In this document: piece by piece, positions 7,004-54,050 of the stretch
How the letters are laid out: each line of letters opens with the position of its first letter
Numbering within the stretch: position 1 is the first letter of the stretch
NCBI GenBank assembly: GCA_902774035.1
Contig: CACYHA010000005.1
Location: 16,768-80,767, forward strand
Source of the DNA: Oscillospiraceae bacterium
GTDB taxonomy: Bacteria > Bacillota > Clostridia > Oscillospirales > Acutalibacteraceae
Direction: 5' to 3'
Length of the DNA stretch: 64,000 nucleotides
Program-made: the position numbers and the translations under genes
The notes under the pieces: model-generated
Databases searched by the model: none
Seen by the model: the letters and a program-made list of their open reading frames with translations, nothing else
Told to the model about the DNA's origin: nothing

Positions 7004-7121
7004 GCGCGGCGAAACGCGGCGGCGGAAGGCTGTGCGCTGCGCGCACAGCCGAAAAGGGCGGGCCCGCCCTTTTCGCGCGCGGCCTTCGGCCGCGCGCTTC
7101 CGCCGCCGCGTTTTGCCGCGC
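7004..7121. repeat. Three-hairpin GC-rich element, copy R1
   Basis: Outer arms at 7004-7028 and 7097-7121 pair over 25 positions with one mismatch. Inside are three hairpins: 7028-7050 (GGCTGTGCGC arm), 7052-7073 (a 22-bp perfect palindrome with arm AAAAGGGCGGG) and 7075-7097 (GCGCGCGGCC arm, TTC loop). It sits between the two-component promoter and the tsf terminator. It belongs to a family with copies at 14439, 38351, 48741, 53749 and 53953. Confidence 0.8.
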
Positions 7122-7153
7122 AGAAAGGAGACATGTTTCTAAGGCCGCGCGAT

Positions 7154-7183
7154 AAAAAAACAGGGCGGCAAAACACCGCCCTG
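7154..7183 (-). terminator. Terminator after tsf
   Basis: CAGGGCGG pairs with CCGCCCTG around an 8-base loop, with an 8-base T run on the minus strand. Confidence 0.9.
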
Positions 7184-7204
7184 CTGACTGCTAACAGCTA
7201 ACTG
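7184..7204. repeat. 7-base periodic repeat, site 1
   Basis: CTGACTG, CTAACAG and CTAACTG, three heptamers in a row, ending 3 bases from the tsf stop codon. It is one of several heptad tracts at gene 3' ends in this window. Confidence 0.6.
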
Positions 7205-7207
7205 CTC

Positions 7208-8314
7208 TTATTTCACCATGCTCGCGATCTCGGCCGCAAAGTTGTCGGCCTTCTTCTCGATGCCTTCGCCGCGCTGGAAGCGGGTGAAGCCGGTGACTTT
7301 GATTTCCGCGCCGAGCTGCTTGGCAACAGAAGCCACATAGCCGGCGACGTTGCCATCAAAGAGATCGGTGCGCACGAACGGCTGGTTCAGCAGGCAGATC
7401 TCCTTGATCTGCTTGGAGATGCGGCCATCCACGGCTTTGCCGAAGATCACGTCGGAAACGAACTGATCCTTGAGCGAAACCGCAACCTCGGCAAGCTTCG
7501 CGATGCCTTCCTTGGAAAGGAAGTTGAACAGGAACTTGTTGTTCTTCTGCTCTTCATAAGCGGCAACGTCCTCGGCGCTCCAAAGCTGTTCGGCAAGCAC
7601 CTTGTCGAAGACCTTCTTCAGGATGGGCTTCGGCAGGGAGTCGGGCTTGTTGAGTGCGCTCTCGATGGTGATGAGCTTCATCTTTGCGCGTTCCTCGTCG
7701 GAAATGTCGCTCTCGCTGAGATATTCGGGGCTCATGGCCGCGATCTGCATGGCGATGTTCTTGCCCATGGCAACGAATTCATCCTTCGCTGCGGTGGCGT
7801 CGTCGGTCTCAAACTGCACCATCACGCCAACGCTGCCGCCGGCATGGATGTAGGTTTCCACGATGCCGTCCACGCGCGCAAAGCGGCGGACCTTCATGTT
7901 TTCGCGGATGGCAAGGAAGAGCTCCTGCACGGCGGCCTCAACGGTCATGTCTTCGCCGCTCAGGGTTTCGGCAAGCAGAGCGTCGACGTCTGCCGGGTTC
8001 TTTTCGGCAACGGTCTTCGCGATCTTGCCGGCAAGCTCCACAAACTGCGGGTTTTTGGCCACAAAGTCGGTCTCGCAGTTGACTTCCACAAGCACGCCGA
8101 CCTTATTCGCCTTATCGTTATAAGCGACAACAACGCCTTCGGCTGCCACGCGGGAGGATTTCTTCTGCTGGGTAGCAAGTCCTCTTTCCTTGAGGATCTC
8201 ATTGGCCTTTTCCATGTCGCCTTCGGCTTCCACGAGGGCCTTTTTGCATTCCATCATGCCGACGCCGGTCTTTTCGCGCAGCGCCTGGACATCTTTTGCG
8301 GTAAATGCTGCCAT
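7208..8314 (-). CDS. tsf: Elongation factor Ts
   Basis: Guanine-nucleotide exchange factor for EF-Tu. The UBA-like N-terminus (AAFTAKDVQALREKTGVGMM) and the TDFVAKN motif (near 81-87) are canonical, as is the C-terminal CLLNQPFV and FTRFQRGEGIEK. At 368 residues it is about 60 longer than the roughly 300 usual in Firmicutes: extra sequence lies at about 225-290, between the ALNKPDSLPKPI stretch and the KQIKEICLLNQPFV stretch. It is the second gene after rpsB, 12 bases downstream, and has a strong terminator. Confidence 0.95.
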   Translation of the reverse strand: MAAFTAKDVQALREKTGVGMMECKKALVEAEGDMEKANEILKERGLATQQKKSSRVAAEGVVVAYNDKANKVGVLVEVNCETDFVAKNPQFVELAGKIAKTVAEKNPADVDALLAETLSGEDMTVEAAVQELFLAIRENMKVRRFARVDGIVETYIHAGGSVGVMVQFETDDATAAKDEFVAMGKNIAMQIAAMSPEYLSESDISDEERAKMKLITIESALNKPDSLPKPILKKVFDKVLAEQLWSAEDVAAYEEQKNNKFLFNFLSKEGIAKLAEVAVSLKDQFVSDVIFGKAVDGRISKQIKEICLLNQPFVRTDLFDGNVAGYVASVAKQLGAEIKVTGFTRFQRGEGIEKKADNFAAEIASMVK

Positions 8315-8326
8315 AATTCTTCCTCC

Positions 8327-9064
8327 TTATTCAGCGGCGGCTTCTTCTGCCGGCGCTTCTTCCACGGCGGGAGCGTTGGATTCGCCCTGTCTGCCTTCGA
8401 TGATCGCATCGGCCATTGCGCCGGAGATCAGGCGAACTGCACGGATGGCGTCGTCGTTGCCGGGGATGACATAATCCACTTCGTCCGGGTCACAGTTGGT
8501 GTCCACAATGGCGATGATGGGGATGCCGAGCTTATGGGCTTCCGCAACGGCGATGCGCTCTTTGCGCGGGTCAACGATGAACAGCGCGTCCGGCTGCTTC
8601 TTCATGCCGGTGATGCCGCCCATGAATTTTTCGAGCTTTTCGATCTCAAGCTGCAGCTTGATGACTTCCTTCTTCGGAAGCATGGCAAAGGTGCCGTCGG
8701 TCTCCATCTGCTTGAGCTGGGCCAGGCGGCGGATACGCTTCTGGATGGTGCCGAAGTTGGTCAGCATACCGCCGAGCCAACGGGCGTTGACATAGGGCAT
8801 GTCGCAGCGGGCGGCTTCTTCGCGGATGGAATCCATCGCCTGCTTTTTCGTGCCGACAAACAGCAGCGTGCCGCCGTTTTCGGAGAGCTCGCGCACGAAA
8901 TGATACGCCTCGTCGAGTTTGCGAACGGTCTTCTGCAGGTCGATGATGTAGATACCGTTGCGTTCTGTGAAAATGTACTCCGCCATTTTCGGGTTCCAGC
9001 GTCTTGTCTGGTGGCCGAAATGCACACCGGCTTCAAGAAGCTGCTTCATTGATACAACTGCCAT
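8327..9064 (-). CDS. rpsB: 30S ribosomal protein S2
   Basis: 245 residues. The hallmarks [37 protein letters not shown] and [19 protein letters not shown] identify S2. The start at 9062-9064 (MAVVSMKQ) is chosen because AAGGAGG lies 8 bases upstream of it and only 2 bases before the earlier ATG at 9068-9070. The tail is an Ala/Glu-rich extension ([15 protein letters not shown]). It is co-transcribed with tsf, as is usual in bacteria. The leader between 9065 and 9173 is structured and may carry ribosomal-protein autoregulation. Confidence 0.97.
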
Positions 9065-9099
9065 GGTCATATCCTCCTTAAAAAATGTTTGTAACCTCC

Positions 9100-9157
9100 G
9101 AAAGGGCAAGGGCCCGCCGCGCGGACTGGCCGCGAACAGGGCAGACTGACCCCTTTC
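9100..9157 (-). promoter_or_regulatory. Structured leader of rpsB
   Basis: GAAAGGG (9100-9106) pairs with CCCTTTC (9151-9157), enclosing further GC-rich pairings (GGGCCC, CGCGCGGACTGGCCGCG). A hairpin in this position would suit feedback by S2, but no known leader family is recognised. Confidence 0.4.
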
Positions 9158-9173
9158 GTGCGTTATCCGTTGC

Positions 9174-9202
9174 ATTATAGCACAAGCGATTTTAAATTGC
9201 AA
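9174..9202 (-). promoter_or_regulatory. Promoter of rpsB-tsf
   Basis: Minus-strand TTGCAA (9197-9202), 17-base spacer, TATAAT (9174-9179). Confidence 0.7.
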
Positions 9203-9328
9203 GGTTTTTTTGAAAAAAGTTTTCGCCATGTACCAGGGAAAAAATCATTTGTGCCGAAGCACTCGCCCCGGCACTATTTTTCATACGGCTCGCGCCGTAT
9301 TTTTGAGGAAGGTCTCCCCTCCTCTGTT

Positions 9329-9450
9329 CGGCGGAGAAGCTGCAAACGCTCGGCTGCGGCGGATTCGCTTCAAGGTGCGGGATCCTGCCGCCGCCACGGC
9401 AAAGAACAGAAGGGGAACAGAAGAATTCTGCGTTTGCAGCTTCTTCCGCC
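9329..9450. repeat. Degenerate relative of the three-hairpin element (R7)
   Basis: Outer arms 9329-9349 and 9429-9450 pair over 21 positions with a single bulge (core GAAGCTGCAAACGC). The arms begin with CGGCGGA, like the family, but the inside shows no clean set of three hairpins. It fills most of the gene-free stretch between rpsB and murC; no coding capacity is evident there. Confidence 0.45.
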
Positions 9451-9490
9451 GCTTTGCACTTTGCGCGGAACTTCTCCGCTGAAGATAGTA

Positions 9491-9521
9491 TCACCATGCA
9501 TCCGTAAAAAATGCATGGTGA
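9491..9521 (-). terminator. Hairpin after murC
   Basis: A perfect 11-bp stem (TCACCATGCAT/ATGCATGGTGA) with a 9-base loop, 15 bases beyond the murC stop. No T run follows the stem, so it may protect the 3' end rather than terminate by itself. Confidence 0.45.
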
Positions 9522-9535
9522 CAGGTGGAAGATTT

Positions 9536-10912
9536 TTACTTTTTTTCGAGCTTTGCCTTCATCAGCTTTGCGGCCTTGTAAATGTCGCCGCAGCCCAGGG
9601 TGATGATCAGGTCGCCCGCCTGCGCGTGTTCGAGCGTGTAGTCCGCGACCTCCTCAAAGGTGTTGAACCAGACGGAGCCGGGGATCTTTTCCGCGAGGTC
9701 CTTTGTGCAGATGCCGTAGGTGTTCACCTCGCGCGAGCCCATGATCTCTGTCATGACGCAGCGGTCGGGGATCTGCAGCACACGGACGAAATCGTCGAAC
9801 AGGATCTTCGTGCGCGAATAGGTGAAAGGCTGGAACACCGCCCAGACCGTGCGGTAGCCCATCTGCATCACGGCGCTCAGCGTCGCTTCCAGCTCGTTCG
9901 GGTGGTGGGCGTAGTCGTCCGCGATGGTGATGCCGCCGATCTCGGCAAGAATCTCAAACCGCCGCCCCGCGCCGGTAAAGGTTGCGATGCCCGTTTCGCA
10001 GTCCGCAAAGGACACGCCGGCGTTCACAGCCGCCGCAAAAGCGGCCAGCGCGTTGTATATGTGGTGTTTACCGGGGATCCTGAGCTGCAGGTGCGCCACG
10101 GTTTCGCCGCGAAAGACAACGTCGAACCCGGCGAACGCGCCGCGCTCAAAGGTGATGTTCGCCGCGCTGTAGTCGTTTTTGCTGTCAAGACCGAAGGTGA
10201 GCTTTTCCTTGTCGAGCCCTTCCACTGCCCGGACCGTGTTGGCGTCGTCGCCGTTATAGATCAGGGTGCGGCTCGTCAGCGCGGAAAACTTGCGGAAGGA
10301 CGCGATGATGTTGTCGAGGTTCTTGAAGTATTCCAGATGATCCTCGTCCACATTCAGGATCACGGCAACCGAGGGCGAAAGATCCAGATAGTGATCCTTG
10401 TATTCGCAGGCCTCGCAGACCAGCGTGTCGGCGCTCCCCGCGCGGCCGTGGGAGCCGATCATAGGCAGCACGCCGCCGATCACTGCGCCCGGGTCCTTCC
10501 CGGCGGTCAGCAGGATCTGCGTGAGCATGGAGGTGGTGGTCGTTTTGCCGTGGGTGCCGCAAACGCCGATGCAGTTTTTGTAGCGCCGGGTGATGGCGCC
10601 GAAGAGCTTTGCGCGTTCAAAGGCGGGGATTTCGCCGTTCTTTGCGGCAAGAAGCTCCGGGTTGTCGGGCAGGATCGCCGCCGTATAGACGATCAGATCC
10701 GCACCGGCAAGGTTTTCCGCCTTCTGGCCGAGAATGACCTTGACGCCAAGCGAACGCAGATGGTCGATGTTGTCGCCCGGGTTGTTGTCGGAGCCTTGAA
10801 CCGTATAGCCCCAGGAGAGCAAAATCTCCGCAAGCGGGCACATACCGGAACCGCCGATGCCGATGAAATGCACCGTTTTGACCTGTGCGAGCAATTGATC
10901 GATCGTTTGCAT
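9536..10912 (-). CDS. murC: UDP-N-acetylmuramate--L-alanine ligase
   Basis: Adds L-Ala to UDP-MurNAc, the first amino acid of the peptidoglycan stem peptide. 458 residues, the usual length. The N-terminal IHFIGIGGSGMCPLAEIL binds UDP; the ATP loop is GTHGKTTTTSM (near 118); ACEYKDHYL and NVDEDHLEYF are typical of MurC, and IADDYAHHPNE is the C-terminal signature. GAAGGA lies upstream of the ATG. It stands alone on the minus strand, divergent from dpaA. Confidence 0.97.
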   Translation of the reverse strand: MQTIDQLLAQVKTVHFIGIGGSGMCPLAEILLSWGYTVQGSDNNPGDNIDHLRSLGVKVILGQKAENLAGADLIVYTAAILPDNPELLAAKNGEIPAFERAKLFGAITRRYKNCIGVCGTHGKTTTTSMLTQILLTAGKDPGAVIGGVLPMIGSHGRAGSADTLVCEACEYKDHYLDLSPSVAVILNVDEDHLEYFKNLDNIIASFRKFSALTSRTLIYNGDDANTVRAVEGLDKEKLTFGLDSKNDYSAANITFERGAFAGFDVVFRGETVAHLQLRIPGKHHIYNALAAFAAAVNAGVSFADCETGIATFTGAGRRFEILAEIGGITIADDYAHHPNELEATLSAVMQMGYRTVWAVFQPFTYSRTKILFDDFVRVLQIPDRCVMTEIMGSREVNTYGICTKDLAEKIPGSVWFNTFEEVADYTLEHAQAGDLIITLGCGDIYKAAKLMKAKLEKK

Positions 10913-10944
10913 AAGGATTCCTTCTTTACTGAGTTTGTCAGTTT

Positions 10945-10973
10945 ATTATATCGCATTTTTTTGATTCTGTAAA
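10945..10973 (-). promoter_or_regulatory. Promoter of murC
   Basis: Minus-strand TTTACA (10968-10973), 17-base spacer, TATAAT (10945-10950). Confidence 0.7.
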
Positions 10974-10990
10974 CACCTTTTTGCAAATGC

Positions 10991-11018
10991 ACCAAAACTT
11001 CGCCGCCGTCATACAATG
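10991..11018 (+). promoter_or_regulatory. Candidate sigma-K promoter of dpaA
   Basis: AC at 10991-10992, a 17-base gap, then CATACAATG (10010-type position 11010-11018), close to the sigma-K pattern AC-N16/17-CATANNNTA. dpaAB is mother-cell (sigma-K) expressed in Bacillus; the match here is one base short. Confidence 0.35.
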
Positions 11019-11043
11019 GCGTATGAATGAAGGAGGGGTCCGA

Positions 11044-11898
11044 ATGGAACACAGCTTTGTGCTTCTGGCCGGGGACGCGCGTCTGCGCGCGCTGCTGCAT
11101 TTGCTGGAGGAAAAGGGAATATCCGCCCTGCATTTGACCGCCTGCCGCTCCCCTGCCGCGCTGGAAGCGGCGGTCGCGATCGCGAAGACGCTGGTGCTGC
11201 CCGTTCCGATGAGCCGCGACGGCGTTCATCTTTGCAGCAGCGGCGAGGAATGCATCCTGCTGGAGGATGTGCTCGGTGCGCTGCGGCCGGGGCAGGAAGT
11301 GTTCGGCGGCGCCATTTCCGCAGACCAAAAGGCGAAGATCGAAGCCCGGGGCGCAAAGGCGGTCGATTTTTTACGGGATGCGCCTTTCGTTTTGAAAAAC
11401 GCCGCGTTCACGGCGCAGGGTGCGCTGCGTCTGCTGCTGGAGCATCTGAATGTGCCGCTGCAGGGGCTGCCGGTGCTCGTTACGGGCTACGGCCGCGTCG
11501 GAAAAGCGGCGGGAACGCTGCTGCGTTCGGTCGGCTGCCGCGTGAGCGTTGCCGCACGCAGCGAGGTTCAGCGCACCGAAGCGGCGCTCTCCGGCTGCGC
11601 GGCGATCACGCTCGACGCGATGCCCGCGATTTTGCCGCGGACGGCAGCCATCCTCAACACGGCGCCCGCGCCCCTCTTCGACGCGGGGACACTGCGGCGC
11701 TGCCAAAAGGACGCGCTCTATCTGGAGCTTGCCTCCGCCCCCTTCGGCGCGCAGGAAACCGAGGTTCGCGCCGCCGGGCTGCACTACGTTTTCGGCGGAG
11801 GGCTGCCCGGAAGGTTTTGCGCGGCCGGGTGCGCAGACGCGATGCTGCAGGTGATGAAGGGGAAGTGCCCGCTGCTTTCCCCGATGTGTGAAACCTGA
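11044..11898 (+). CDS. dpaA: Dipicolinate synthase subunit A
   Basis: With DpaB it makes dipicolinic acid from dihydrodipicolinate in the mother cell during sporulation (SpoVFA in Bacillus). 284 residues from ATG 11044, which has GGAGGGG upstream. The N-terminal half (AGDARLRALLHLLEEKG) and the C-terminal Rossmann segment PVLVTGYGRVGKAAGTLLRSVG, then ILNTAPAPLFD and FGGGLPGRFC, match the family. Slightly shorter than the roughly 297 residues of Bacillus. dpaB follows 123 bases downstream. Its presence shows the organism makes, or recently made, endospores. Confidence 0.93.
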   Translation: MEHSFVLLAGDARLRALLHLLEEKGISALHLTACRSPAALEAAVAIAKTLVLPVPMSRDGVHLCSSGEECILLEDVLGALRPGQEVFGGAISADQKAKIEARGAKAVDFLRDAPFVLKNAAFTAQGALRLLLEHLNVPLQGLPVLVTGYGRVGKAAGTLLRSVGCRVSVAARSEVQRTEAALSGCAAITLDAMPAILPRTAAILNTAPAPLFDAGTLRRCQKDALYLELASAPFGAQETEVRAAGLHYVFGGGLPGRFCAAGCADAMLQVMKGKCPLLSPMCET

Positions 11899-12021
11899 CG
11901 GCTTTCAAGAGATTTCTGTGCAAAATGGCGGAAAACTGCCGACAGGATTTGCGCATCCGAGTGAATCGGCGGGTACACAACGGCTGAAAAAGCCGGCACC
12001 GCAGCAAAAGGAGGTGATCTC

Positions 12022-12594
12022 ATGCACAAAGCTTCTCTCGGTTATGCCATGACCGGCTCGTTCTGCACCTTTGAAAAAAGCCTTGCCGAACTGCAAAAGC
12101 TGCTGGATTCCGGCTACGCCGTGCTGCCGATCCTGTCGTTCCACGCGGCGCAGACCGACACGCGCTTCGGCAAAGCGGCCGATTTCATCGCGCGTATGGA
12201 AACGATGACCGGCCGCCCTGTCTGGCGCACGCTGACCGCCGTGGAGCCCATCGGCCCGAAAAAGCTCTGCGATCTGCTGATCGTTTCGCCCTGCACCGGC
12301 AACACGCTCGGCAAGCTGGCCGCCGGCATCTATGACACGCCGGTCACGCTCGCCGTGAAATCCCAGCTTCGCGCCGGACGGCCCGTGCTGCTCGGCGTTT
12401 CCACCAACGACGCGCTGGAAGGCTCCGCCAACAGCATCGGCACCCTGCTTGCGCGAAAGAACGTCTTCTTTTTGCCGATGGCGCAGGATGCGCCGGAGCA
12501 CAAGCCGCGTTCCGTGGTCTGCGATTTTTCGAAGACCGGCGCAGCCGCCGAAGCAGCCCTGCGCGGGGAACAACTGCAGCCCCTGTTTTTTTGA
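12022..12594 (+). CDS. dpaB: Dipicolinate synthase subunit B
   Basis: Flavoprotein-like partner of DpaA (SpoVFB). 190 residues: GYAMTGSFCTF at the N-terminus, DLLIVSPCTGNTLGKLAAGIYDTPVTLAVK in the flavoprotein fold (read here in two parts, CTGNTLGKLA and YDTPVTLAVK) and RPVLLGVSTNDAL are all diagnostic. AAAAGGAGGTGA precedes the ATG by 5 bases, an unusually complete ribosome site. A small hairpin (CGGCT/AGCCG, 11981-11995) lies just upstream in the intergenic gap; its role is unknown. Confidence 0.94.
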   Translation: MHKASLGYAMTGSFCTFEKSLAELQKLLDSGYAVLPILSFHAAQTDTRFGKAADFIARMETMTGRPVWRTLTAVEPIGPKKLCDLLIVSPCTGNTLGKLAAGIYDTPVTLAVKSQLRAGRPVLLGVSTNDALEGSANSIGTLLARKNVFFLPMAQDAPEHKPRSVVCDFSKTGAAAEAALRGEQLQPLFF

Positions 12595-12612
12595 ATCAGT
12601 GATGCTTACCTC

Positions 12613-12641
12613 TTGCCAACCGCGCATGATTCCGCTATAAT
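12613..12641 (+). promoter_or_regulatory. Promoter of the TPR/DUF4037 pair
   Basis: TTGCCA (12613-12618), 17-base spacer, TATAAT (12636-12641). Confidence 0.75.
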
Positions 12642-12661
12642 GGGGGCAGGAGGCGAAGCAT

Positions 12662-13492
12662 ATGCCATTGAACAAAGAAGACTACGCGGAACCCCGCTGC
12701 CTGCTGTGCGACATGGATCCGAACAGCGAACAGGCGAAGGTCCAGTCCGTCCCCGTGGGTCGAATTCTGGAAAAGTTCGATCAGTTCCTTGATAAAAACG
12801 ACACGGACGGCGCAAAGCGTCACCTGCTGTACTGGATCGAAGAAGCCCGCGCCGGGCATGACAAGCGCGGCCTCTTCACCCTCAGCAACGAATGGATGGG
12901 CCTTGCACGCAAGCTGGGGCTCAGGGACGAAGCGCTCAAAGCCGCGGAAGACACCCTCGCGCTGGCGGAACAGCTCGGCATGACGGAAAACGTCACCGGC
13001 GCGACGGCGCTGCTCAACGCCGGCACCGTCTGCAAGGCGTTCGGAGAAGCCGAAAAAGGGCTACCTCTCTTTGAAAAAGCAAAAGAGATCTATGAAGCGC
13101 AGCTTGCGCCGGACGACGAACGGCTGCCGGGGCTTTACAACAACATGGGGCTGGCCCTTTGCGACCTCGGCCGCTTTGACGAAGCGAAGGCCGCCTACGA
13201 AAAGGCGTTTTCGCTGACCGCAGCCGTTCCGCAGCGCGCCGGCGACGCCGCCATCACCCTGCTGAACCTCGCGAACCTCATCGAGGCGCAGCGCGGACTG
13301 ATGGAGGGCAACGACGAGATCCTCGCCTGCCTTGACCGGGCGCAGGCACTGCTGGACAGCGAAGGACTGCCCCGCGACGGCTATTACGCCTTTGTCTGCG
13401 AAAAATGTGCCCCGACCTTCGGCTACTACGGCTATTTTGATTATCAGAACGCGCTGCTTTCACGCGCAAGGAGCATTTATGAAGGGGCTTGA
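12662..13492 (+). CDS. TPR-repeat protein
   Basis: 276 residues, cytoplasmic, no signal peptide. A CLLCDMD motif near 18 is followed by helical repeats between about 40 and 245; the segments ATALLNAGTVCKAFGEAEKG and LYNNMGLALCDLGRFDEAKA are textbook TPR units. The last 30 residues are aromatic (APTFGYYGYFDYQNALL). It overlaps the next gene by 14 bases, so the two are translationally coupled and probably act together. TPR arrays bind peptides or partner proteins; the partner is likely the DUF4037 protein, by inference from the overlap. Confidence 0.85.
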   Translation: MPLNKEDYAEPRCLLCDMDPNSEQAKVQSVPVGRILEKFDQFLDKNDTDGAKRHLLYWIEEARAGHDKRGLFTLSNEWMGLARKLGLRDEALKAAEDTLALAEQLGMTENVTGATALLNAGTVCKAFGEAEKGLPLFEKAKEIYEAQLAPDDERLPGLYNNMGLALCDLGRFDEAKAAYEKAFSLTAAVPQRAGDAAITLLNLANLIEAQRGLMEGNDEILACLDRAQALLDSEGLPRDGYYAFVCEKCAPTFGYYGYFDYQNALLSRARSIYEGA

Positions 13493-14405: not shown

Positions 14406-14438
14406 CCGAAGAACCGCGCACGGCAGAGCCGCGCGCAA

Positions 14439-14532
14439 GGCGGCGGCGGAACGAACCGTGCGAACGCACGGTTCAAAAACGAAGCACGCTTCGTTTTTCG
14501 CGCGGCCCGGGCCGCGCGGTTCCGCCGCCGCC
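14439..14532. repeat. Three-hairpin GC-rich element, copy R2
   Basis: Perfect 14-bp outer stem: GGCGGCGGCGGAAC (14439-14452) with GTTCCGCCGCCGCC (14519-14532). Inner hairpins: 14453-14474 (GAACCGTGC), 14475-14498 (AAAAACGAAGC) and 14499-14518 (CGCGCGGCC). Extra hairpins flank it: an imperfect one at about 14416-14437 and GCGCAGC/GCTGCGC at 14537-14553. It lies between two convergent genes. Confidence 0.9.
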
Positions 14533-14557
14533 CCTCGCGCAGCGAAGCTGCGCAAAA

Positions 14558-14590
14558 AAGCCCGCCGGGATTTAAAATCCCTGCGGGCTT
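14558..14590. terminator. Bidirectional terminator
   Basis: AAGCCCGCCGGGATT pairs with AATCCCTGCGGGCTT (one mismatch). Upstream A-run serves the minus-strand lysozyme gene; the plus-strand T run is weak. It ends both convergent units. Confidence 0.75.
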
Positions 14591-14603
14591 GCCTGTTTCT
14601 GTG

Positions 14604-17028: not shown

Positions 17029-17045
17029 TTTGAATTTCGGTTCGG

Positions 17046-18933: not shown

Positions 18934-18949
18934 GTCCGTTCAAGGAAAA

Positions 18950-24215: not shown

Positions 24216-24257
24216 TAGATGTTATTAGAAATTAGATGTTAGATATTAGATATTAGA
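24216..24257. repeat. 7-base periodic repeat, site 2
   Basis: TAGATGT, then TATTAGA, AATTAGA, TGTTAGA, TATTAGA, TATTAGA: five or six heptamers, joined to the 110-bp tandem repeats that follow. Confidence 0.75.
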
Positions 24258-24586
24258 TCAGAAGGGCGCCGCGCTGCGCGTGATGCGCCGATCTGTGTGG
24301 ATGTCGAGAAAATAGATTACCACACGAAGGGGAGCAGACGGTACTTTCCCTTTTTGCAAGATGTTAGATCAGAAGGGCGCCGCGCTGCGCGTGATGCGCC
24401 GATCTGTGTGGATGTCGAGAAAATAGATTACCACACGAAGGGGAGCAAACGGTACTTTCCCTTTTGCAAGATGTTAGATCAGAAGGGCGCCGCGCTGCGC
24501 GTGATGCGCCGTTCTGTGTGGATGTCGATAATCATCAGCTATATTACCACACGAAAGGGAGCAGACGGTACGTTACCTTTTTGCAA
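24253..24586. repeat. Three tandem copies of a 110-bp unit
   Basis: Units start at 24253, 24364 and 24474 (each at TTAGATCAGAAGG), spaced 111 and 110 bases. Unit 3 overlaps the 3' end of the methyltransferase gene (stop at 24544); units 1 and 2 are copies of that 3' end, including the stop codon and the downstream hairpin arms (GTGTGG/CCACAC). Unit 2 has a one-base deletion relative to unit 1 within its coding-like part. This fills the stretch between the methyltransferase and the exporter genes. Confidence 0.9.
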
Positions 24587-38288: not shown

Positions 38289-38350
38289 TTTTTGTTTTTG
38301 AAAGACACTTTTCAAAAAGCTCTTTTCGCGCAGCCTTCGCTGCGCCGAGG

Positions 38351-38443
38351 GCGGCGGCGGGCTCCCTCGTGCAGCCGCACGAGGGAGCTGTGCGCGAAAG
38401 CGCACAGCGCCGCGCGGCCGGGGCTGCGCGGGCCCGCCGCCGC
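38351..38443. repeat. Three-hairpin GC-rich element, copy R3
   Basis: Perfect 12-bp outer stem: GCGGCGGCGGGC (38351-38362) with GCCCGCCGCCGC (38432-38443). Inner hairpins: 38362-38387 (CTCCCTCGTGC), 38388-38407 (CTGTGCGC, GAAA loop) and 38408-38431 (imperfect, CCGCGC arm). Flanking hairpins: GCGCAGC (38328-38345) and GCACGGC (38449-38465). It fills the gap before the next promoter; no gene is seen there. Confidence 0.88.
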
Positions 38444-38564
38444 GTTTCGCACGGCGCAGCCGTGCGAGAAAACAAGCTGCGCTGCCGCTTTGTTTTGCAG
38501 CTCGCTCCGTTACACGCCGCATCCCGGAAAATCGCGACGACGTGCAGTTTTTTCCGAACCCGGC

Positions 38565-45403: not shown

Positions 45404-45461
45404 CGTATGCTCTCCTTATTATTTTGTATGTTTGGCTGCGCCAAGGGTGTGAAAGGAATGA

Positions 45462-47219: not shown

Positions 47220-47235
47220 CGTACATCCTCCTTCG

Positions 47236-47262
47236 GATGAAGAATTATGAATAAAGGAACGG
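47236..47262. repeat. 7-base periodic repeat, site 5 (weak)
   Basis: GATGAAG, AATTATG, AATAAAG between the GH2 start and the SH3-protein stop. The periodicity is looser than at the other sites. Confidence 0.3.
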
Positions 47263-47275
47263 TGCGCCGGGCGCG

Positions 47276-48589
47276 TTATTTCAGATAGGCCGCGGAGACC
47301 CAGCCGGAAACGCCGTGGGTCGTATCCGTCACATAGACCCAGCCGGAAACGCTGCTGCTTGCGCCCTTGACCAGCACGGGGAAGCCGTCCGAGATGGAGC
47401 GGATCACATCGTAGGAGGTGCCGGGGCCTTTGCGCAGGTTCAAGCCTTCGCCGTCAGCGGCCACAGATCTGGACTTCGGGCTGCTGTAGGTCACGTCCGG
47501 GCTGACAACGCCGGAAACGCTGCGTTCGCTCGTTGCCACGGGGCGGGCGTCGCCGATGTAGGCTTTGTTCGCCCAGCCGGAAACGCCGTAGCGGTTGGAA
47601 TAGATGTAGTAGTAGCCGTTTTCCTCCCCGGTGACCACCACATCGGCGCCGACGGAAAGGCTCAGCAGCTTTGCGGCGTCCTTGTTCGGCGCGGTGCGCA
47701 GGGCGACGCCGTTCGTCGTCACATACATCGTGCGGCGCGGCGTGGTGGTGTGCGGACGCTGCACGGTCGTGGTGGGCGCGGCCGTCGTGGTCGGGCGTGT
47801 GGTCGTCACAGCGCGCCGTGTTGTGGTCGTATGGCGCGTGGTCGTCGTATGACGCGCCGTCGTTGTCGCGGGACGGGTCGTCGTGGTCGTTTCGCGGGTC
47901 GTCGTCGGTTTCGTCGTCGTCGGTTTCGTCGTCGGTTCGGTGGAGGATTCAAACTCCGACGGCGCAGTCAGCTCGTTGTCATCGGTCAGATCGGTGTCGT
48001 CCGTGTCATCGGTGTCGTCCGTATCGTCCGTGTCGTCCGTGTCGTCGATATCCTTCGTGGTGTCGTCGGACGGCTCGGTCGCCTTCGTGGTGGAGGTCCA
48101 GAAAATCTCGTCCGTCGTCGCGGCGGTCACGGTGTCGCTCGGCTGAACCGTTGTGGCAGGCTGCTTGTCCAGAACAAAGGTCTTGACAGCATAGGCGCCG
48201 ACAGCGGCCAAAAGGAGAATGGCGATTGCGGCGATCACGGCCTTGCCCCGCTTTTTCCCGCCGCCGTCCACCATCATGTCTTCGCCGTCATCCTCAGCGA
48301 AATCTTCCGCATCGTCCTCCTCTGCGGGAGGGACGGCGGGTTCCGGCGCAGGCGTCGGCTCTTCCGTGTAAACCTCCGGCGCGGTATAGGGGGAAACGTA
48401 AACCGGAACGGAAAACTCCTCCGGTTCCTGCATCGGAGGCATCGCCGGTTCCGGAATCTCGGCCGGCGCGGGCGGCGCAGGTTCTTCCGCCGGAGGGACA
48501 AAGTCGTTATCCAGATTCAGAATGGTGCCGCACTCGGGGCAAAAGGACGCCCCGTTCGGCAGTTCGTTACCGCAAAAGCTGCATTTCAT
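47276..48589 (-). CDS. Zinc-ribbon membrane protein with Thr/Asp linker and SH3 domains
   Basis: 437 residues from ATG 48589. A zinc ribbon ([21 protein letters not shown]) opens the protein. A Pro/Glu-rich stretch, then one hydrophobic helix ([18 protein letters not shown], about 165-182), puts the rest outside the cell. A linker follows with DDT-type repeats ([15 protein letters not shown]) and a Thr/Arg/Pro-rich part. Three bacterial SH3 modules end it (about 295-360, 365-437, key G-x-x-N-x-R pieces ALRTAP and NLRKGP). Such SH3 domains bind cell wall. It is the first gene before GH2, with a gap of 56 bases and no terminator. Confidence 0.85.
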
Positions 48590-48647
48590 TGAAATCACTC
48601 CTATGCTTGAATGGTCCTGAAAAAGAACGTAAAACTTTCCAAATTTG

Positions 48648-48676
48648 ATTGTACCATATTTAGCTGCCGATTGCAA
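48648..48676 (-). promoter_or_regulatory. Promoter of the zinc-ribbon/SH3 gene
   Basis: Minus-strand TTGCAA (48671-48676), 17-base spacer, TACAAT (48648-48653). Could also drive GH2-GH36-CBM9-kinase. Confidence 0.7.
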
Positions 48677-48740
48677 GAAGAAAACGGAAAAACATTGGGG
48701 GCTGCTGCATTCCCTCTTTTTACGCACGGCCCTGCCGTGC

Positions 48741-48838
48741 GAAGGCGGCGGCGGAACCGCGCGGCCCGGGCCGCGCGAAAACGAAGCAACGCTTCGTTTT
48801 GAACCGTGCCCTGCACGGTTCGTTCCGCCGCCGCCTTC
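48741..48838. repeat. Three-hairpin GC-rich element, copy R4
   Basis: Perfect 17-bp outer stem: GAAGGCGGCGGCGGAAC (48741-48757) with GTTCCGCCGCCGCCTTC (48822-48838). Inner hairpins: 48758-48777 (CGCGCGGCC), 48778-48800 (AAAACGAAGC) and 48801-48821 (GAACCGTGC). These are the same three modules as in R2, in reverse order. Flanks: GCACGGC/GCCGTGC (48724-48740) and CGCCGCGCAGC/GCTGCGCGGCG (48838-48862). It lies between two divergent promoters. Confidence 0.92.
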
Positions 48839-48883
48839 GCCGCGCAGCGAAGCTGCGCGGCGGCAGAAAGGCGCCGTTATCCG

Positions 48884-48912
48884 TTGACAACGGCGGCAGT
48901 ATGCGCTATAAT
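48884..48912 (+). promoter_or_regulatory. Promoter of the GH28 gene
   Basis: Perfect consensus: TTGACA (48884-48889), 17-base spacer, TATAAT (48907-48912), 27 bases before the ATG. Confidence 0.92.
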
Positions 48913-48939
48913 CAAACCACTGAAATCGGAGGCGAGCTT

Positions 48940-50298
48940 ATGGCAGATTATCTTGTTTCATCCTTTGGGGCAAAGGGCGACGGACAGACCAACGACGCAG
49001 CGGCCATTCAGGCCGCGCTGGACGCCTGCTGCGAAAACGGCGGCGGCCGTGTGGTGCTGGAAAGCGGACACACCTATTACAGCGCTTCCCTTTTTTTGCG
49101 CGAAAATGTGGAGCTGCATCTGGAAAAAGGCGCTGTGCTCAAGGCAACGGGCGACCTCGCGGGCTATGTGCGCCCAAACGAAAAGATCAACGACCCGAAG
49201 ACCGCGCTGATCGGCAACCCCGTGACGGGAAAGCCCAGCTTCGTTTTCCTTTACGGCCTGCATGCCCACGGCTGCGCCGTCACCGGCAGCGGCACGATCG
49301 ACGCGAACGGTTCGGCCTTTCTTCGCCGCAAAGACCGCTACTATGTCACCGGCGATTTCTATCCCCGCCCGACGACGATCTATGTCGAAGCCAGCGACCA
49401 CATCTCCTTCCGTGATTTCACCGTGGTCGGCGCGCCCTTCTGGACGCTCCACCCCGCGGGCTGCGACGACGTGCTGATCGACCGCATCCGCATCCTCAAC
49501 GACCTCGACGCGGCGAATTCCGACGGCATCGACCCCGACCACTGCTCGAACGTGCGCATCCTCGGCTGCCACATCGTTTGCGCCGACGACTGTATCTGCC
49601 TGAAAACGAGCAAAGGCAACGCCGAATACGGCCCGTGCGAAAACATTGTCATTGACGGCTGCACGCTGACCTCCACCTCCGCCGCGATCAAAATCGGCAC
49701 CGAGGGTGTGGGCGATTTTCGCAACGTGCTCGTGTCGAACTGCGTCATCAGCCGCTCCAACCGCGGCCTTTCCATTCAGATCCGCGACGGCGGCAATGTG
49801 GAAAACGTGAGCTACAGCAACATTTCCATTGAAACGCGCCGTTTTTGCCCCGACTGGTGGGGCACGGCGGAGCCGATCGGGCTCACGAGCTTTGACCGCG
49901 ACGCGCACACAAACAGCGGCACGATCCGTAACATCCGCTTCTTCAACGTGACGACAAACGGCGAAAACGGCGTGCTCATCCACGGCGGCAAGGCGGCAAA
50001 GATCTCCGACGTCACCTTTGACCGCTGCAGCGTACATGTGACAAAAACGAGCAAATGGCCCTGCGGTCTCTATGATCTGCGGCCCTGTCTCGAATATGGG
50101 GTCGAAAAAAGCACCAACGCGGCATTCTACCTGCGCGGGTGCAAAAACATTGCGATCGAAAACACGAAAGCCGACTTCGGCAACCTCTGCGACGATTACT
50201 GCCATGCGCTCGACGCAAAAGACGTGACGGGTCTGACGCTGCGTGCGTTTGAAGGAAAAGCGGCGAAAGACGAGGAAGCATTGAGAATTGAAGATTGA
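48940..50298 (+). CDS. Glycoside hydrolase family 28 (polygalacturonase-like)
   Basis: 452 residues from ATG 48940 (GGAGG upstream), cytoplasmic. DYLVSSFGAKGDGQTNDAAA is the pectate-lyase-like opening; the beta-helix has DDVLIDRIRI, NSDGIDPDHCSNVRI, DDCICLKTSKGN and NRGLSIQIRDGG, the catalytic Asp residues being in NSDG and DDC. It probably cleaves pectic oligosaccharides inside the cell. Its last codons (ALRIED) are written in a 7-base repeat. It stands alone and is divergent from the SH3/GH2/GH36 genes. Confidence 0.92.
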   Translation: MADYLVSSFGAKGDGQTNDAAAIQAALDACCENGGGRVVLESGHTYYSASLFLRENVELHLEKGAVLKATGDLAGYVRPNEKINDPKTALIGNPVTGKPSFVFLYGLHAHGCAVTGSGTIDANGSAFLRRKDRYYVTGDFYPRPTTIYVEASDHISFRDFTVVGAPFWTLHPAGCDDVLIDRIRILNDLDAANSDGIDPDHCSNVRILGCHIVCADDCICLKTSKGNAEYGPCENIVIDGCTLTSTSAAIKIGTEGVGDFRNVLVSNCVISRSNRGLSIQIRDGGNVENVSYSNISIETRRFCPDWWGTAEPIGLTSFDRDAHTNSGTIRNIRFFNVTTNGENGVLIHGGKAAKISDVTFDRCSVHVTKTSKWPCGLYDLRPCLEYGVEKSTNAAFYLRGCKNIAIENTKADFGNLCDDYCHALDAKDVTGLTLRAFEGKAAKDEEALRIED

Positions 50299-50313
50299 AA
50301 ATGGAAAAATAAA
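50279..50313. repeat. 7-base periodic repeat, site 6
   Basis: CATTGAG, AATTGAA, GATTGAA, AATGGAA, AAATAAA. The stop codon of the GH28 gene lies inside this tract, so the repeat supplies the end of the protein. Confidence 0.7.
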
Positions 50314-50317
50314 AAAA

Positions 50318-50344
50318 CCGCTGCGGATGCGAATCTGCGGCGGC
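50318..50344. terminator. Terminator between GH28 and ilvN
   Basis: CCGCTGCGGAT pairs with ATCTGCGGCGG (two G-T pairs), with A and T runs on either side, so it works in both directions. Confidence 0.85.
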
Positions 50345-50378
50345 TTTTTACATTCGGTTCGAGACAGCGAATCAACGA

Positions 50379-50885
50379 TCAACAAAAATTTTCCGTTGTT
50401 GCAAGCGCTTCGCTGCCGCGCTGGAGCGCGACCACGCCCGTGCGGCACATTTCGAGGATACCGAGGGGGCGCAGCACGTCGATGAAGGCCTGGATCTTGT
50501 TCGGTTCGCCCGTGACCTCGATCATGATCGCGTCGGTGGAATAGTCGATGATCTTGCCGCGGTAAACGTCGGCGGCGGTCATGATCTCGCTGCGGGTCCC
50601 GGCGGAGTTTTTCACCTTCACCAGCAGGAGCTCGCGTTCCACGGAATCGCCGCGCTCAAGCAGCTTGACCTCCTTGACATTGTGGAGCTTTTTGAGCTGG
50701 CGCGTGATCTGGGTGCGGACATAATCGTCGCCCTGCATGGTGATCGTGATCCGCGAATAATCGGGGTTTTCCGTTTCGCCGACGGTCAGGGTGTCGATGT
50801 TGAAGCCGCGGCGCATGATGAGTCCGGCCACGCGGGTCAGAACGCCGTATTTGTTTTCGACATAAACTGCTATGACATTGCGCAT
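50379..50885 (-). CDS. ilvN: Acetolactate synthase small subunit
   Basis: Regulatory ACT-domain subunit of acetolactate synthase, giving feedback inhibition by valine. 168 residues, normal length. RNVIAVYVENKYGVLTRVAGLI and RGFNIDTLTVGETENPDYSRIT match the ACT domain; PLGILEMCRTGVVALQRG is the typical C-terminus. GGAG lies 9 bases before the ATG. It is the third gene of the ilvB operon, after an unrelated MBL hydrolase that lies 14 bases upstream. Confidence 0.95.
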   Translation of the reverse strand: MRNVIAVYVENKYGVLTRVAGLIMRRGFNIDTLTVGETENPDYSRITITMQGDDYVRTQITRQLKKLHNVKEVKLLERGDSVERELLLVKVKNSAGTRSEIMTAADVYRGKIIDYSTDAIMIEVTGEPNKIQAFIDVLRPLGILEMCRTGVVALQRGSEALATTENFC

Positions 50886-50899
50886 TTGAAACGCTCCTT

Positions 50900-51736
50900 T
50901 CAGCGGTCGCACTGGTGCGCCCAGTAGATCGAGGTGAAGAGAATGTGTTTTCGGCTCGGCGCGGCGGCGAAGCAGAGCTTGCTTTTTGCGCCGGGAACGC
51001 TGAGTTTCAAAAAGGCTTTTTGCGGCGTCAGCCGGTCGATCCATTCGGCATAGTCGCGCATGAAGGAGATGCTGTGGGTCAGCGGCATGTGGGCGCCGCG
51101 GTATTTCGTGTAGCCGAGGGCGGCAACCTCACGGTAGTAACGGCGGCCCTCATCGGCGTAGGTGTGCAGACTGCAGCCGGGATTCGTGAACATCCAGATG
51201 TCGATATCACTGGCGTCCCCGGCATAGATGAAGCGCTCCGCAGGATCCAGCAGGGTGATGGAACCCGGCGTGTGGCCGGGAAAATCCTTGACGACGAGCG
51301 TTTTTCCGCCGAGGTCAAAGGTGTCGCCGTCCTTCAGCGGCACATACTGCGTATTTCCGGGCTTCGTCATCAGGAGCCTGTCGATCCACTTTTGCAGCTT
51401 CTTCGTTTTGGGATATTTTTCGAACACGGCGGCCACAATATCGTCCACCAGCTTGAAATAGACGTCGTCTGTGGTGAAGGTCGGAAGATCGCGCTCGCCG
51501 ATGTAGACCTTTTCAAAGTGATGGTTGCCGTTGGCGTGGTCGGGATGGAAATGGGAATTGACAACGATCAGCTCTTTGTCCGTCAGGCTTGCGACAAATT
51601 CCCTGATATTGAACAGGTCAAGGCCGGTATCGAACAGCAGGGCTTTGCTGTCGCCCTCGATGAGAAATTCGTTGACGATCCCGTCTTTGATGCGTGTGAC
51701 CCGGTCACGCAGTTTTGCGGTTTTATAGCGGAACAT
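50900..51736 (-). CDS. MBL-fold metallo-hydrolase inside the ilv operon
   Basis: 278 residues from ATG 51736 (GGAGGAGG upstream). VVNSHFHPDHANGNHHF holds the HxHxDH zinc site; later ligands are the His in DFPGHTPGSI, the Asp in YAGDASDID and the His in GAHMPLTHSI. The enzyme may hydrolyse a thioester, lactone or phosphoester; the substrate is unknown. It starts 2 bases after ilvB ends and ilvN follows 14 bases on, so the three are one transcript under the T-box. Confidence 0.9.
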   Translation of the reverse strand: MFRYKTAKLRDRVTRIKDGIVNEFLIEGDSKALLFDTGLDLFNIREFVASLTDKELIVVNSHFHPDHANGNHHFEKVYIGERDLPTFTTDDVYFKLVDDIVAAVFEKYPKTKKLQKWIDRLLMTKPGNTQYVPLKDGDTFDLGGKTLVVKDFPGHTPGSITLLDPAERFIYAGDASDIDIWMFTNPGCSLHTYADEGRRYYREVAALGYTKYRGAHMPLTHSISFMRDYAEWIDRLTPQKAFLKLSVPGAKSKLCFAAAPSRKHILFTSIYWAHQCDR

Positions 51737-51738
51737 CG

Positions 51739-53412
51739 TTAAACCTCCTCCAAAGAAAGCGGCGAGAACGCCTGCAGCTCCGGGTCGAGCCGACAATCGA
51801 TCAGCACGGGCGTCTTTTCCTTCAGCGCCGCCGCAAAAGCTTTTTTGAACTGCGCAGGGGTTTCGGCCCTTGTTCCCTTTGCGCCGAAGGCTTCGGCAAC
51901 CCGGACAAAATCGGTTTTGCGCGCCGAAAGATCCGTCCAGGCCAGGCGGCCGCCGAAGGCGGTCTGCTGCATCTGGCGCACCATGCCGAGAGAACGGTTA
52001 TCGAACACAAGGATCACCAGCGGAAGACGCTCCGTCACCGCCGTTGCAAGCTCAGTCAGGTTCATGCCGAAGCTGCCGTCACCCGTGATCAGCAGGGTTT
52101 GCTTTCCCGTGCCGATGCACGCGCCGATGGCCGCGCCGAGACCGTAGCCCATCGTCCCGAGGCCGCCGCTGGAAACAAGGGTATGCGGCTGCCGGAAGGC
52201 GGCGAACTGCGCCGTCCACATCTGATGCTGGCCGACGTCGGTGGCAATGACCGTTTGCGGGTCGCGCAGCGCGTTGATCACGCGGAACATTGCCTGCGGC
52301 GTAAGCGCCGTTTCTCCGGCGCTTTCCGCCGATGCAAGCAAGGCGGCTTCCCTGCTGCGCAGGGCCTGCACGCGCGCCGCCCAATCCGGGTGGCTTTGCG
52401 CCGCGCAGCGATTCGCAAGAAGCAAAAACAGCACGCGCAGATCGCCGTGCAGGCCGCAGTCCACGGGAACATTTTTGCCAAGCTCGGCAATGTCGGTGTC
52501 CATCTGGATGACCGTCGCGCGGTCGTTCAGCGCTGGCAGGCCTTCCGTGGCGCGGTCGGAAAAGCGCACGCCCACGCCGAGGATCAGGTCTGCCTCCCGG
52601 AACGCCGCCGAAGCGGCATAGCGCCCATGCATCCCCTGCATCCCAAGAAAGCGCGGCGCGTCCGTCGGCACCGCCGTCAAGCCCATAAACGAACAACCGA
52701 CCACGGCGTCGAGCTTTTCCGCCAGCGCGAGCACGGCTTCGCCGAGACCGCAGCCGAGAGCGCCGCCGCCGATGTAAATATAGGGGCGTTCCGCTTTTTC
52801 GATCAGCGCCGCTGCGCGGTCAAGCTTGGCCTCCTTTGACTGCGGCAGAGACCGGGGCGCTGCGGGCGGCGCAGGCCGAAACACGCACAGCGCCTGCTGA
52901 ACATCCTTCGGAATGTCGATCAGCACCGGGCCGGGGCGGCCGGAGCGCGCAATTGCAAACGCTTCGCGGATCGTATCCGCCAGTTCGCACACGTCCTGCA
53001 CAAAGAAATTATGTTTGGTGATGGGCAACGTGACGCCGGTGATGTCGACCTCCTGAAAGCTGTCGCGGCCGATCATGGACGTGGCGACGTTTCCTGTGAT
53101 CGCCACCAACGGCACGGAATCAAGCATCGCCGTGGCGAGCCCGGTCACAAGGTTCGTGGCGCCCGGGCCGCTCGTTGCGATCACAACGCCGACCTTGCCC
53201 GTGGCCCGGGCGTAGCCGTCCGCAGCGTGCGCCGCGCCCTGCTCGTGCGCCGTGAGCACATGGCGCAGCCGACGACGGGCGTGATAAAGCTCGTCGTAGA
53301 TATCCAGCACGGTTCCCCCGGGGTAGCCGAAGACGTCGGTCACGCCCTGCTCCAGCAGCGTTTCGATCAAAATGCGTGCGCCGCGCAAGCGTTTGGTTTT
53401 TTCGTTCTGCAT
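51739..53412 (-). CDS. ilvB: Acetolactate synthase large subunit
   Basis: TPP/FAD enzyme that makes acetolactate from two pyruvate (or acetohydroxybutyrate), the first common step to valine, leucine and isoleucine. 557 residues from ATG 53412 (GGGGAGGGAG upstream). GARILIETLLEQGVTDVFG and YPGGTVLDIYDELY open the protein; AHEQGAAHAADGYARATGK holds the catalytic Glu; the TPP loop reads TGDGSFGMNLTELATAV with VILVFDN. It heads the ilvB-MBL-ilvN operon and is controlled by an upstream T-box. Confidence 0.97.
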   Translation of the reverse strand: MQNEKTKRLRGARILIETLLEQGVTDVFGYPGGTVLDIYDELYHARRRLRHVLTAHEQGAAHAADGYARATGKVGVVIATSGPGATNLVTGLATAMLDSVPLVAITGNVATSMIGRDSFQEVDITGVTLPITKHNFFVQDVCELADTIREAFAIARSGRPGPVLIDIPKDVQQALCVFRPAPPAAPRSLPQSKEAKLDRAAALIEKAERPYIYIGGGALGCGLGEAVLALAEKLDAVVGCSFMGLTAVPTDAPRFLGMQGMHGRYAASAAFREADLILGVGVRFSDRATEGLPALNDRATVIQMDTDIAELGKNVPVDCGLHGDLRVLFLLLANRCAAQSHPDWAARVQALRSREAALLASAESAGETALTPQAMFRVINALRDPQTVIATDVGQHQMWTAQFAAFRQPHTLVSSGGLGTMGYGLGAAIGACIGTGKQTLLITGDGSFGMNLTELATAVTERLPLVILVFDNRSLGMVRQMQQTAFGGRLAWTDLSARKTDFVRVAEAFGAKGTRAETPAQFKKAFAAALKEKTPVLIDCRLDPELQAFSPLSLEEV

Positions 53413-53429
53413 AAAGCTCCCTCCCCGCA

Positions 53430-53690
53430 AAAGAAAAAGAAAAAGGCTCCCGTCTCCAAAGAGACGAAAGCGCACTGTCTTCCGCGGTACCACTCTTTTT
53501 CGGCCGATGGCCGCCCTCAGGCGCTGACACGCCTTGCCCTGTAACGGGAGCACCCGTCTGCGGTTACTCGGTTCTCCGCAACCGCTCCGCGGCGACTTCC
53601 GAACGGCCTTTTGATGCCTTGCAGCGGCCGGCATCTCTCTGGGAAAAGGGAGCGTTCGTACTCCTCCGCTTCATCGCGTTTTCTTTGATT
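53430..53690 (-). promoter_or_regulatory. T-box riboswitch upstream of ilvB
   Basis: The minus strand carries the T-box core AAGAGTGGTACCGCGG (plus 53482-53497), an AGTA in stem I, AGAGAG in the distal stem-I region and a terminator hairpin (CGTCTC/GAGACG) with T-rich run before ilvB. Stem I pairs CGAACG with CGTTCG; the opposite internal loop reads GAAGTCG, giving GUC (Val) as the likely specifier codon. Uncharged tRNA would turn the operon on. Confidence 0.93.
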
Positions 53691-53696
53691 GTTTGG

Positions 53697-53725
53697 ATTA
53701 TAGCACGTTCGAGCGCGTTTGTCAA
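53697..53725 (-). promoter_or_regulatory. Promoter of the ilvB operon
   Basis: Perfect consensus on the minus strand: TTGACA (53720-53725), 17-base spacer, TATAAT (53697-53702). Confidence 0.93.
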
Positions 53726-53748
53726 GTTTTCGAAAAAGATGCGCGTGA

Positions 53749-53869
53749 GGCGGCGAAACGCATCGTGCAAAGCACAATGCAAAACGCAGCGCGGGGCGAA
53801 TGTTGAGTAAAGCTTCCGCGCACGGCTGCGCTGCGTTTTCGCGCAGCGCAGCTGCGCGGTTTCGCCGCC
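53749..53869. repeat. Three-hairpin GC-rich element, copy R6 (variant)
   Basis: Perfect 11-bp outer stem GGCGGCGAAAC (53749-53759) with GTTTCGCCGCC (53859-53869). Inside: GCATCGTGC/GCACAATGC, then AAAACGCAGCGC/GCGCTGCGTTTT closing a 35-base loop, then CGCGCAGC/GCTGCGCG. It sits 24 bases upstream of the ilvB -35 box. Confidence 0.75.
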
Positions 53870-53952
53870 GGCGGCAACAGCAAACAGCAGAACGGGGCTG
53901 CTGTTTCAGCAGCGCTCCTCTTTTTTTCGCGCACGGCCTTGCCGTGCGCGAA

Positions 53953-54050
53953 GCACGGCGGCGGAACCGTGCGGCCCCGGCCGCACGAAAACGAAGCAAG
54001 GCTTCGTTTTGAACCGTGCCGAAGGCACGGTTCGTTCCGCCGCTGCCTGC
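53953..54050. repeat. Three-hairpin GC-rich element, copy R5
   Basis: Outer stem of 10 perfect pairs next to the inner part (GCGGCGGAAC with GTTCCGCCGC) between 53953-53967 and 54034-54050. Inner hairpins: 53968-53987 (CGTGCGGCC), 53988-54010 (AAAACGAAGC) and 54011-54033 (GAACCGTGC), the same order as in R4. A flanking hairpin GCGCACGGC/GCCGTGCGC lies at 53929-53949. The R6-R5 gap (53870-53928) shows no gene. Confidence 0.88.

Follow-up and report, generated by a model that had tools for sequence, protein, structure and literature searches.

The window analyzed here, a stretch of 64,000 nucleotides from contig CACYHA010000005.1 of an Oscillospiraceae bacterium (family Acutalibacteraceae), carries six intergenic copies of a cloverleaf repeat. 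What appears to define this element is that one strand folds into three back-to-back hairpins closing on an outer stem, i.e., a four-way junction, with few or no unpaired bases. The reading we favor, at a probability of roughly 0.6, is that of a non-autonomous, non-coding DNA repeat whose one-strand fold is preserved, partly by template switching. The unit, which in the window's clade would usually comprise the cloverleaf and two more flanking hairpins, would spread to intergenic sites of its genome, mainly 3' to genes, through an enzyme acting in trans that presumably recognizes the folded single strand. During replication, template switches between arms would use one arm as the template to rewrite its partner, in some cases inverting the loop, and the arms would thereby stay complementary at the DNA level. 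Copies with a lost fold would spread no further, or would not be retained.

The fold and its recurrence across the genus

All six copies proposed by the first-pass annotation are present in the window, and its layout of three back-to-back hairpins in one outer stem is seen by folding in five of them. For the sixth, at 53749, the DNA centroid structure has the three arms, but the RNA minimum free energy structure deviates in the middle, and the drawing of this copy had to be amended to a middle loop of 35 nt and an outer stem GGCGGCGAAAC. The extent of the element had also been drawn too small, given four of the six copies have an extra hairpin just outside the outer stem (on both sides at 14439, 38351 and 48739, and on one side at 53955). 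RNA folding of the six copies yielded z-scores of -6.2 to -12.1, DNA folding -5.5 to -12.9, and for every copy 0 of 200 shuffles folded as well as the native sequence.

A de novo scanner (i.e., a fold-only search for hairpins and a closing stem) found four three-hairpin structures in the window and none with two, four or five hairpins, while five Markov shuffles of the window, tested for two, three and four hairpins, contained no structure. With a wide middle loop permitted, the window yielded five structures and the five shuffles none. The 38351 copy escapes both scans, yet folds as described; a non-Watson-Crick pair in its A hairpin is probably the reason.

Thirty-four genomes of this genus of gut bacteria were compared, including the window's genome (G000, 85% complete) and its sister genomes G018 and G041; stretches of DNA fetched from them are designated by L numbers. 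A DNA search of G000 presented 59 matches, some of which count both strands of one place. The first covariance model, built from 29 copies, matched G000 93 times (often on both strands), G018 57 times, G041 56 times and G040 twice, with no match at an E-value of 0.001 in the remaining 30 genomes. Applied with stricter filters to 295 genomes of the order, this sequence-bound model matched nothing beyond G000 at E-values up to 1e-4. The genome search suggested alongside the original six copies revealed many more, and the refuting outcome named with it, a find of these copies alone, did not occur. In the fetched loci, 117 distinct elements were verified by the scanner (58 in G000, 30 in G018, 27 in G041 and two in G040), 25 of which have a middle loop longer than 12 nt. 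When arms were counted, 91 three-hairpin, six two-hairpin and no four- or five-hairpin structures were obtained, from loci mostly picked by similarity to a three-hairpin query or model.

The two G040 matches present the same layout with largely different arms. Using one of them as a BLAST query and scanning the DNA nearby brought the G040 elements to five, and a second model, built on these five, matches 13 of the 34 genomes; the other 21 are matched by neither model. Three hairpins were confirmed in twelve genomes, ten by the scanner (G000, G018, G041, G040, G043, G046, G002, G008, G039 and G013) and two, G010 and G016, by RNAfold alone. Outside the window's clade, 36 elements are distributed among seven genomes (11 in G040, nine in G043, seven in G008, four in G002, three in G046, and one each in G039 and G013), a set that includes both G040 elements of the 117-element set. 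Six of these seven genomes have zero first-model matches at an E-value of 0.001.

Among 40 fetched stretches, 33 have three hairpins (including L295, which is weak and not counted as a member), one has five (L274), one has two (L285), and five have none by the thresholds used. According to RNAfold, these five comprise three hairpins in L262 and L277, one in L284, two in L287 and one long hairpin in L292, and reduced forms with one or two hairpins thus occur in G040 (L284, L285 and L287). The match in G023, L292, lies at a contig end (near the end of C179) and consists of one perfect hairpin of great length, possibly an assembly fold-back.

Several G040 copies have GTTTGTGCAGGAGG and CCTCCTGCACAAAC as their boundaries. 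Given that some arms in G040 resemble, by eye, those of the 7004 copy, common descent of the window-clade and G040 elements with heavy turnover of letters is plausible. That the fold is preserved despite the changed letters suggests that preservation acts on the DNA shape as such. It is tempting, though distinctly speculative, to go further and regard the repeat as representing a class of genetic elements defined by DNA topology (i.e., a four-way junction, fully or almost fully paired, that carries three minimal hairpins of DNA type), whose shape a bacterial genus would keep through the turnover of letters because a dedicated enzyme recognizes it in extruded or single-stranded form.

Covariation, loops and gene context

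In the alignment of 29 copies, both-sided changes occur at 24 of 42 pairs, and the covariation score of 0.288 compares with a shuffled mean of 0.114 and with at most 0.106 in slid controls. Mismatched stem pairs account for 33 of 4,877 in the 117 elements, versus 28 of 512 in 48 terminator-like hairpins from the same loci. At orthologous sites in different species, 18 pairs present identity at 1394 of 1520 stem, 182 of 312 loop and 5382 of 7362 flank positions, where selection of these pairs for stem identity above 70% itself raises the stem figure. For all 22 compared pairs the values are 1507/1856, 191/382 and 6104/8998, respectively, sums that include one misaligned pair and some loci serving in two pairs. 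(Twenty-three pairs were listed; L098/L118 was dropped for having no called element, and L109/L126, misaligned and all gaps, L087/L122, L035/L112 and L006/L119 were left out of the 18.) The stem pairs of the 18 consist of 672 unchanged, 28 double changes, 8 repairs, 27 mismatches, 6 G-T and 19 gaps. Some common sites hold different subfamilies per species, e.g., L035 versus L112 and L132.

Such figures call to mind a functional RNA, in which the elements would be transcribed as 3' untranslated regions, the fold protecting or processing mRNA ends. We regard this as the best of the rival explanations, albeit an improbable one. The stems are indeed better kept than the loops at orthologous sites and the RNA fold is very stable, but the loops indicate DNA. 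Setting aside loops longer than 8 nt, 351 of 358 have three or four bases. Outside the window's clade the loops are mostly C(GNA)G: of 107 loops no longer than 8 nt in the seven genomes, 87 are triloops, and among these 72 read GNA (40) or its complement TNC (32), with C-G closure in 69 of the 72. By comparison, GNA or TNC accounts for 60 of 237 triloops in control hairpins. Since GNA and TNC are about equally frequent, neither strand is favored. GNA loops on G-C stems are described in PMC4686876 as extraordinarily stable DNA mini-hairpins.

Paralogues with matching arms present an exact loop inversion in 18 of 204 comparisons of differing loops, while complement-only and reverse-only transformations of the same loops gave 0 each; these comparisons come from 130 non-independent element pairs, with 25 palindromic-loop comparisons set aside. 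Template switching has been reported to create and maintain perfect stems, to yield paired double changes and to invert loops (PMC8794818), and it may be the main cause of the covariation seen here. The minimal DNA-type loops and the loop inversion point to DNA, and the fully paired junctions (77 of 117 elements have no unpaired base) fit it. Hence, the loop evidence favors a DNA-level process over a processed RNA, one of the options raised by the first-pass annotation. A further point against an RNA is that the elements match no Rfam family when the whole window is searched at gathering score; with the six loci at E-values up to 1, the best match by E-value is ncS011, with 28.5 bits against a gathering score of 48.

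Gene context was derived from a crude home-made gene caller on overlapping loci, such that the counts are rough. Among the 117 elements, 53 lie between convergent, 39 between tandem and four between divergent genes, with a further 11 at the edge of a locus and 10 within a called frame; the 399 background gene pairs divide into 60 convergent, 273 tandem and 66 divergent. The three contexts previously listed for the copies therefore all occur (the 48739 copy in the window is divergent by called genes), yet unevenly, as the 53, 39 and four of the 96 elements with two called neighbors show. This preference for sites behind genes (convergent 53/96 versus 60/399, divergent 4/96 versus 66/399) is what a 3' untranslated RNA would predict.

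The view that the elements are not simple terminators held up, given a tendency of the outer edges to read TTTT...AAAA, where a bidirectional terminator would have the opposite order. Of 177 outer borders read inward, 83 have a T-run of at least four bases and five have an A-run; further out, inward T-runs are present at 35 of 177. An intrinsic terminator was thus rejected on edge polarity: the T-runs precede the hairpins rather than come after them. A terminator does adjoin 22 of the 177 outer edges, versus 2 of 177 further out.

Unit of dispersal, empty sites and search for an enzyme

Window hairpins of at least seven pairs with GCACGGC or GCGCAGC arms were found only beside cloverleafs. When the 48739 region was compared by BLAST with seven other places in G000, the matches started at query positions 1814-1820 and stopped at 1960-1977, edges that correspond to about 48713 to 48876 of the window. 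Together, the shared edges and the cloverleaf-bound hairpins indicate a unit of dispersal of about 160 bp in the window's clade. A flanking hairpin of any type is present on both sides in 76 of the 117 elements, on one side in 25 and on neither in 16. In 43 elements the A side carries the GCACGGC type and the C side the GCGCAGC type, and in four the order is opposite, which indicates that the core can sit in either orientation between its flanks.

Another dispersed element with inverted repeats, about 160-240 bp long and with ends like GGGGCTGTTGCATTTCGCGAAAAACGTC and its reverse complement, often adjoins cloverleafs and was seen beside the cores in L043, L045, L035, L037, L042, L029, L003 and L031. 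We take its ends to be reminiscent of IS6-family termini.

The inverted cores, like the loop inversion and the near-perfect stems, would also be expected of a passive by-product, i.e., of template switching and rearrangement that keep building palindromes with neither recognition nor transposition. We consider this quite unlikely, since the same sharp-edged 160-bp unit is present at unrelated sites, the three arms recur with different letters, and 21 of the 34 genomes match neither model.

The proposal that the copies are mobile or structured repeats gains support from copy numbers in the dozens in each genome, from the sharp edges and from an empty site. Eighteen other G000 copies match the 48741 copy at 90% identity or more over nearly its full length. 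Most matching stretches in the sister genomes, by comparison, diverge by about 10-25%, which suggests a spread of copies after the species had separated. In both G018 and G041 the site of the 48739 copy is empty: the gap between flanking matches shrinks from 226 bases in G000 to 52 in G018, and from 187 to five in G041. By the G041 match, the 187-bp stretch that five bases replace in G041 covers 48696 to 48882. Its right edge abuts a promoter-like sequence (TTGACA...TATAAT), and the T-run at 48739 is missing in both empty sites. The 53749 and 53955 copies are also absent in G018 and G041, but there the entire spacer differs, and at the 14439 site G018 carries a wide-loop element and G041 none. 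Empty-site comparison between the sister genomes is limited by G041 contigs breaking at repeats.

A linked transposase-like gene, which had been named as something to look for, was not found where Y1_Tnp loci were scanned and neighboring genes were annotated for ten window proteins only. A link to RAYT or IS200 was rejected, given no association in 34 genomes and 17 scanned loci, three of which were checked for reading frames and one by eye. The palindrome near the Y1_Tnp gene of G000 on contig C16 is a different one. In L199, also from G000, a perfect 26-bp palindrome (649-704) lies between a Y1_Tnp gene and what is, by eye, an IS110-type transposase, and it looks like a separate REP-type repeat. 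With one copy as query, no match was obtained in phage and plasmid collections, and a pattern scan of viral contigs flagged 15 by pattern match only.

Several results weigh against a mobilized DNA repeat kept by template switching. No target duplication is visible at the one clean empty site, where the flanks have diverged. Many element sites are common to several species, which may mean that little movement takes place at present. Of the 34 genomes, 21 have Y1_Tnp genes, with a distribution unlike that of the repeat, and no cloverleaf is present in 17 loci around such genes (L187-L203, some truncated by a contig end). The stem conservation at single sites could also mean selection on RNA. The GNA/TNC bias is weaker in the window's clade (G000, 27 of 77 triloops; G018, 20 of 55; G041, 9 of 54), and junctions without an unpaired base number just 7 of 36 in the seven outside genomes. 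Loop inversion among orthologues only does not reach significance (4 of 37 against a permutation mean of 2.2, p about 0.17, with three of the 26 listed pairs skipped). Finally, G-T versus A-C mismatches were considered as a test of RNA against DNA, with 10 versus 12 in the elements and 11 versus 10 in control terminator hairpins; since the control presents the same ratio, the test cannot separate the two, and it was left unused.

The scarcity of fully paired junctions outside the clade and the lack of a genus-wide need, given 21 of 34 genomes match neither model, also make it very improbable that the repeat is a chromosome-structure or protein-binding site whose extruded junction mimics a Holliday junction and is selected by a bound host protein (a resolvase or nucleoid protein), even though the 77 fully paired junctions and the recurrence of the fold with different letters would suit such a site.

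Individual copies and relation to known repeats

The core at 7004-7121 (minus strand, by scanner and folding) has a 25-bp outer stem and the hairpin order A-B-C on the minus strand, and it lies in a tandem context, its neighbors being two minus-strand genes, those for EF-Ts (7208-8314) and a response regulator. Where G000 has this cloverleaf, G041 has 3.3 kb of extra DNA (L180, C86 8818-12141). The scanner-detected core at 14439-14532 (minus) is inverted versus its two flanking hairpins relative to most copies; a hairpin scan placed these at 14416-14436 (GCACGGC type, one mismatch) and 14537-14553 (GCGCAGC type). The core at 38351-38443 (minus, by folding), with divergent arms and an imperfect A hairpin, is flanked in the hairpin scan by a GCGCAGC-type hairpin at 38328-38345 and a GCACGGC-type hairpin at 38447-38467. 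BLAST edges and hairpin scan delimit the dispersal unit of about 160 bp at 48717-48876 (plus), which consists of a hairpin (48723-48741), the core (48739-48840) and a second hairpin (48838-48862). At 53749-53869 (minus), wide-loop scan and DNA folding give a core made of the C hairpin, a B stem with the 35-nt loop, and the A hairpin. The core at 53955-54046 (plus, by scanner and folding) has a GCACGGC-type hairpin at 53926-53952, by hairpin scan, and a right flanking hairpin apparently cut at its loop.

Other features of the window include a T-box leader at 53457-53683 (minus), which precedes a gene for a thiamine-pyrophosphate enzyme, probably acetolactate-synthase-like, and is overlapped by a listed open reading frame. 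Three tandem direct repeats of about 107 bp occupy 24248-24575, the third just 65% alike. Another repeat of about 161 bp (window 11891-11976; L207 10404-10564) has more than 30 copies in G041, many 90-98% identical; one G018 copy, absent in G041, sits at a cloverleaf edge with a possible 4-bp duplication.

The first-pass annotation knew of no named family with this layout, and Rfam and the full-text searches are consistent with that. No description of such an element was found in the portions of the literature covered on cloverleaf, three-hairpin, branched or cruciform intergenic repeats. REP, BIME and REPIN repeats, mobilized by RAYT transposases, are likewise short, palindromic, high-copy, non-coding and intergenic (PMC3733652), and REP and REPIN repeats carry a GTAG (or CGTC) tag at one end, according to the same source. 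However, they have one or two hairpins, whereas the cloverleaf has three in a closing stem and no RAYT linked to it. The stem-loop sequence families surveyed in bacterial genomes (PMC2267715) are also families of stem-loop repeats, although a term search of its main text gave 0 occurrences of "cloverleaf", "branched", "three stem", "multiple stem" or "composite". The ends of IS200/IS605-type elements similarly use single-strand hairpins as recognition signals (PMC6006769), but differ in the lack of cloverleafs around Y1_Tnp genes, a comparison in which the cloverleaf loci themselves were not annotated for transposases. MITEs share the dispersed non-autonomous unit, the inverted-repeat outline and an empty site in relatives; the cloverleaf differs in its interior being paired into arms, and at the one clean site, with its diverged flanks, no target duplication is visible.

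The element is hence a new architecture of small dispersed bacterial repeat. Its broad kind, the short palindromic non-autonomous intergenic repeat, is known; a three-arm junction kept in a genus while its letters change is, as far as we have searched, not. Compensatory change is usually taken as proof of functional RNA, and this repeat combines strong compensatory change with fingerprints of a DNA process, i.e., inverted loops and DNA-type triloops. It thus calls for caution in covariation-based RNA discovery, and it offers a natural system for testing how template switching shapes palindromes and how an element may persist by its shape during sequence turnover.

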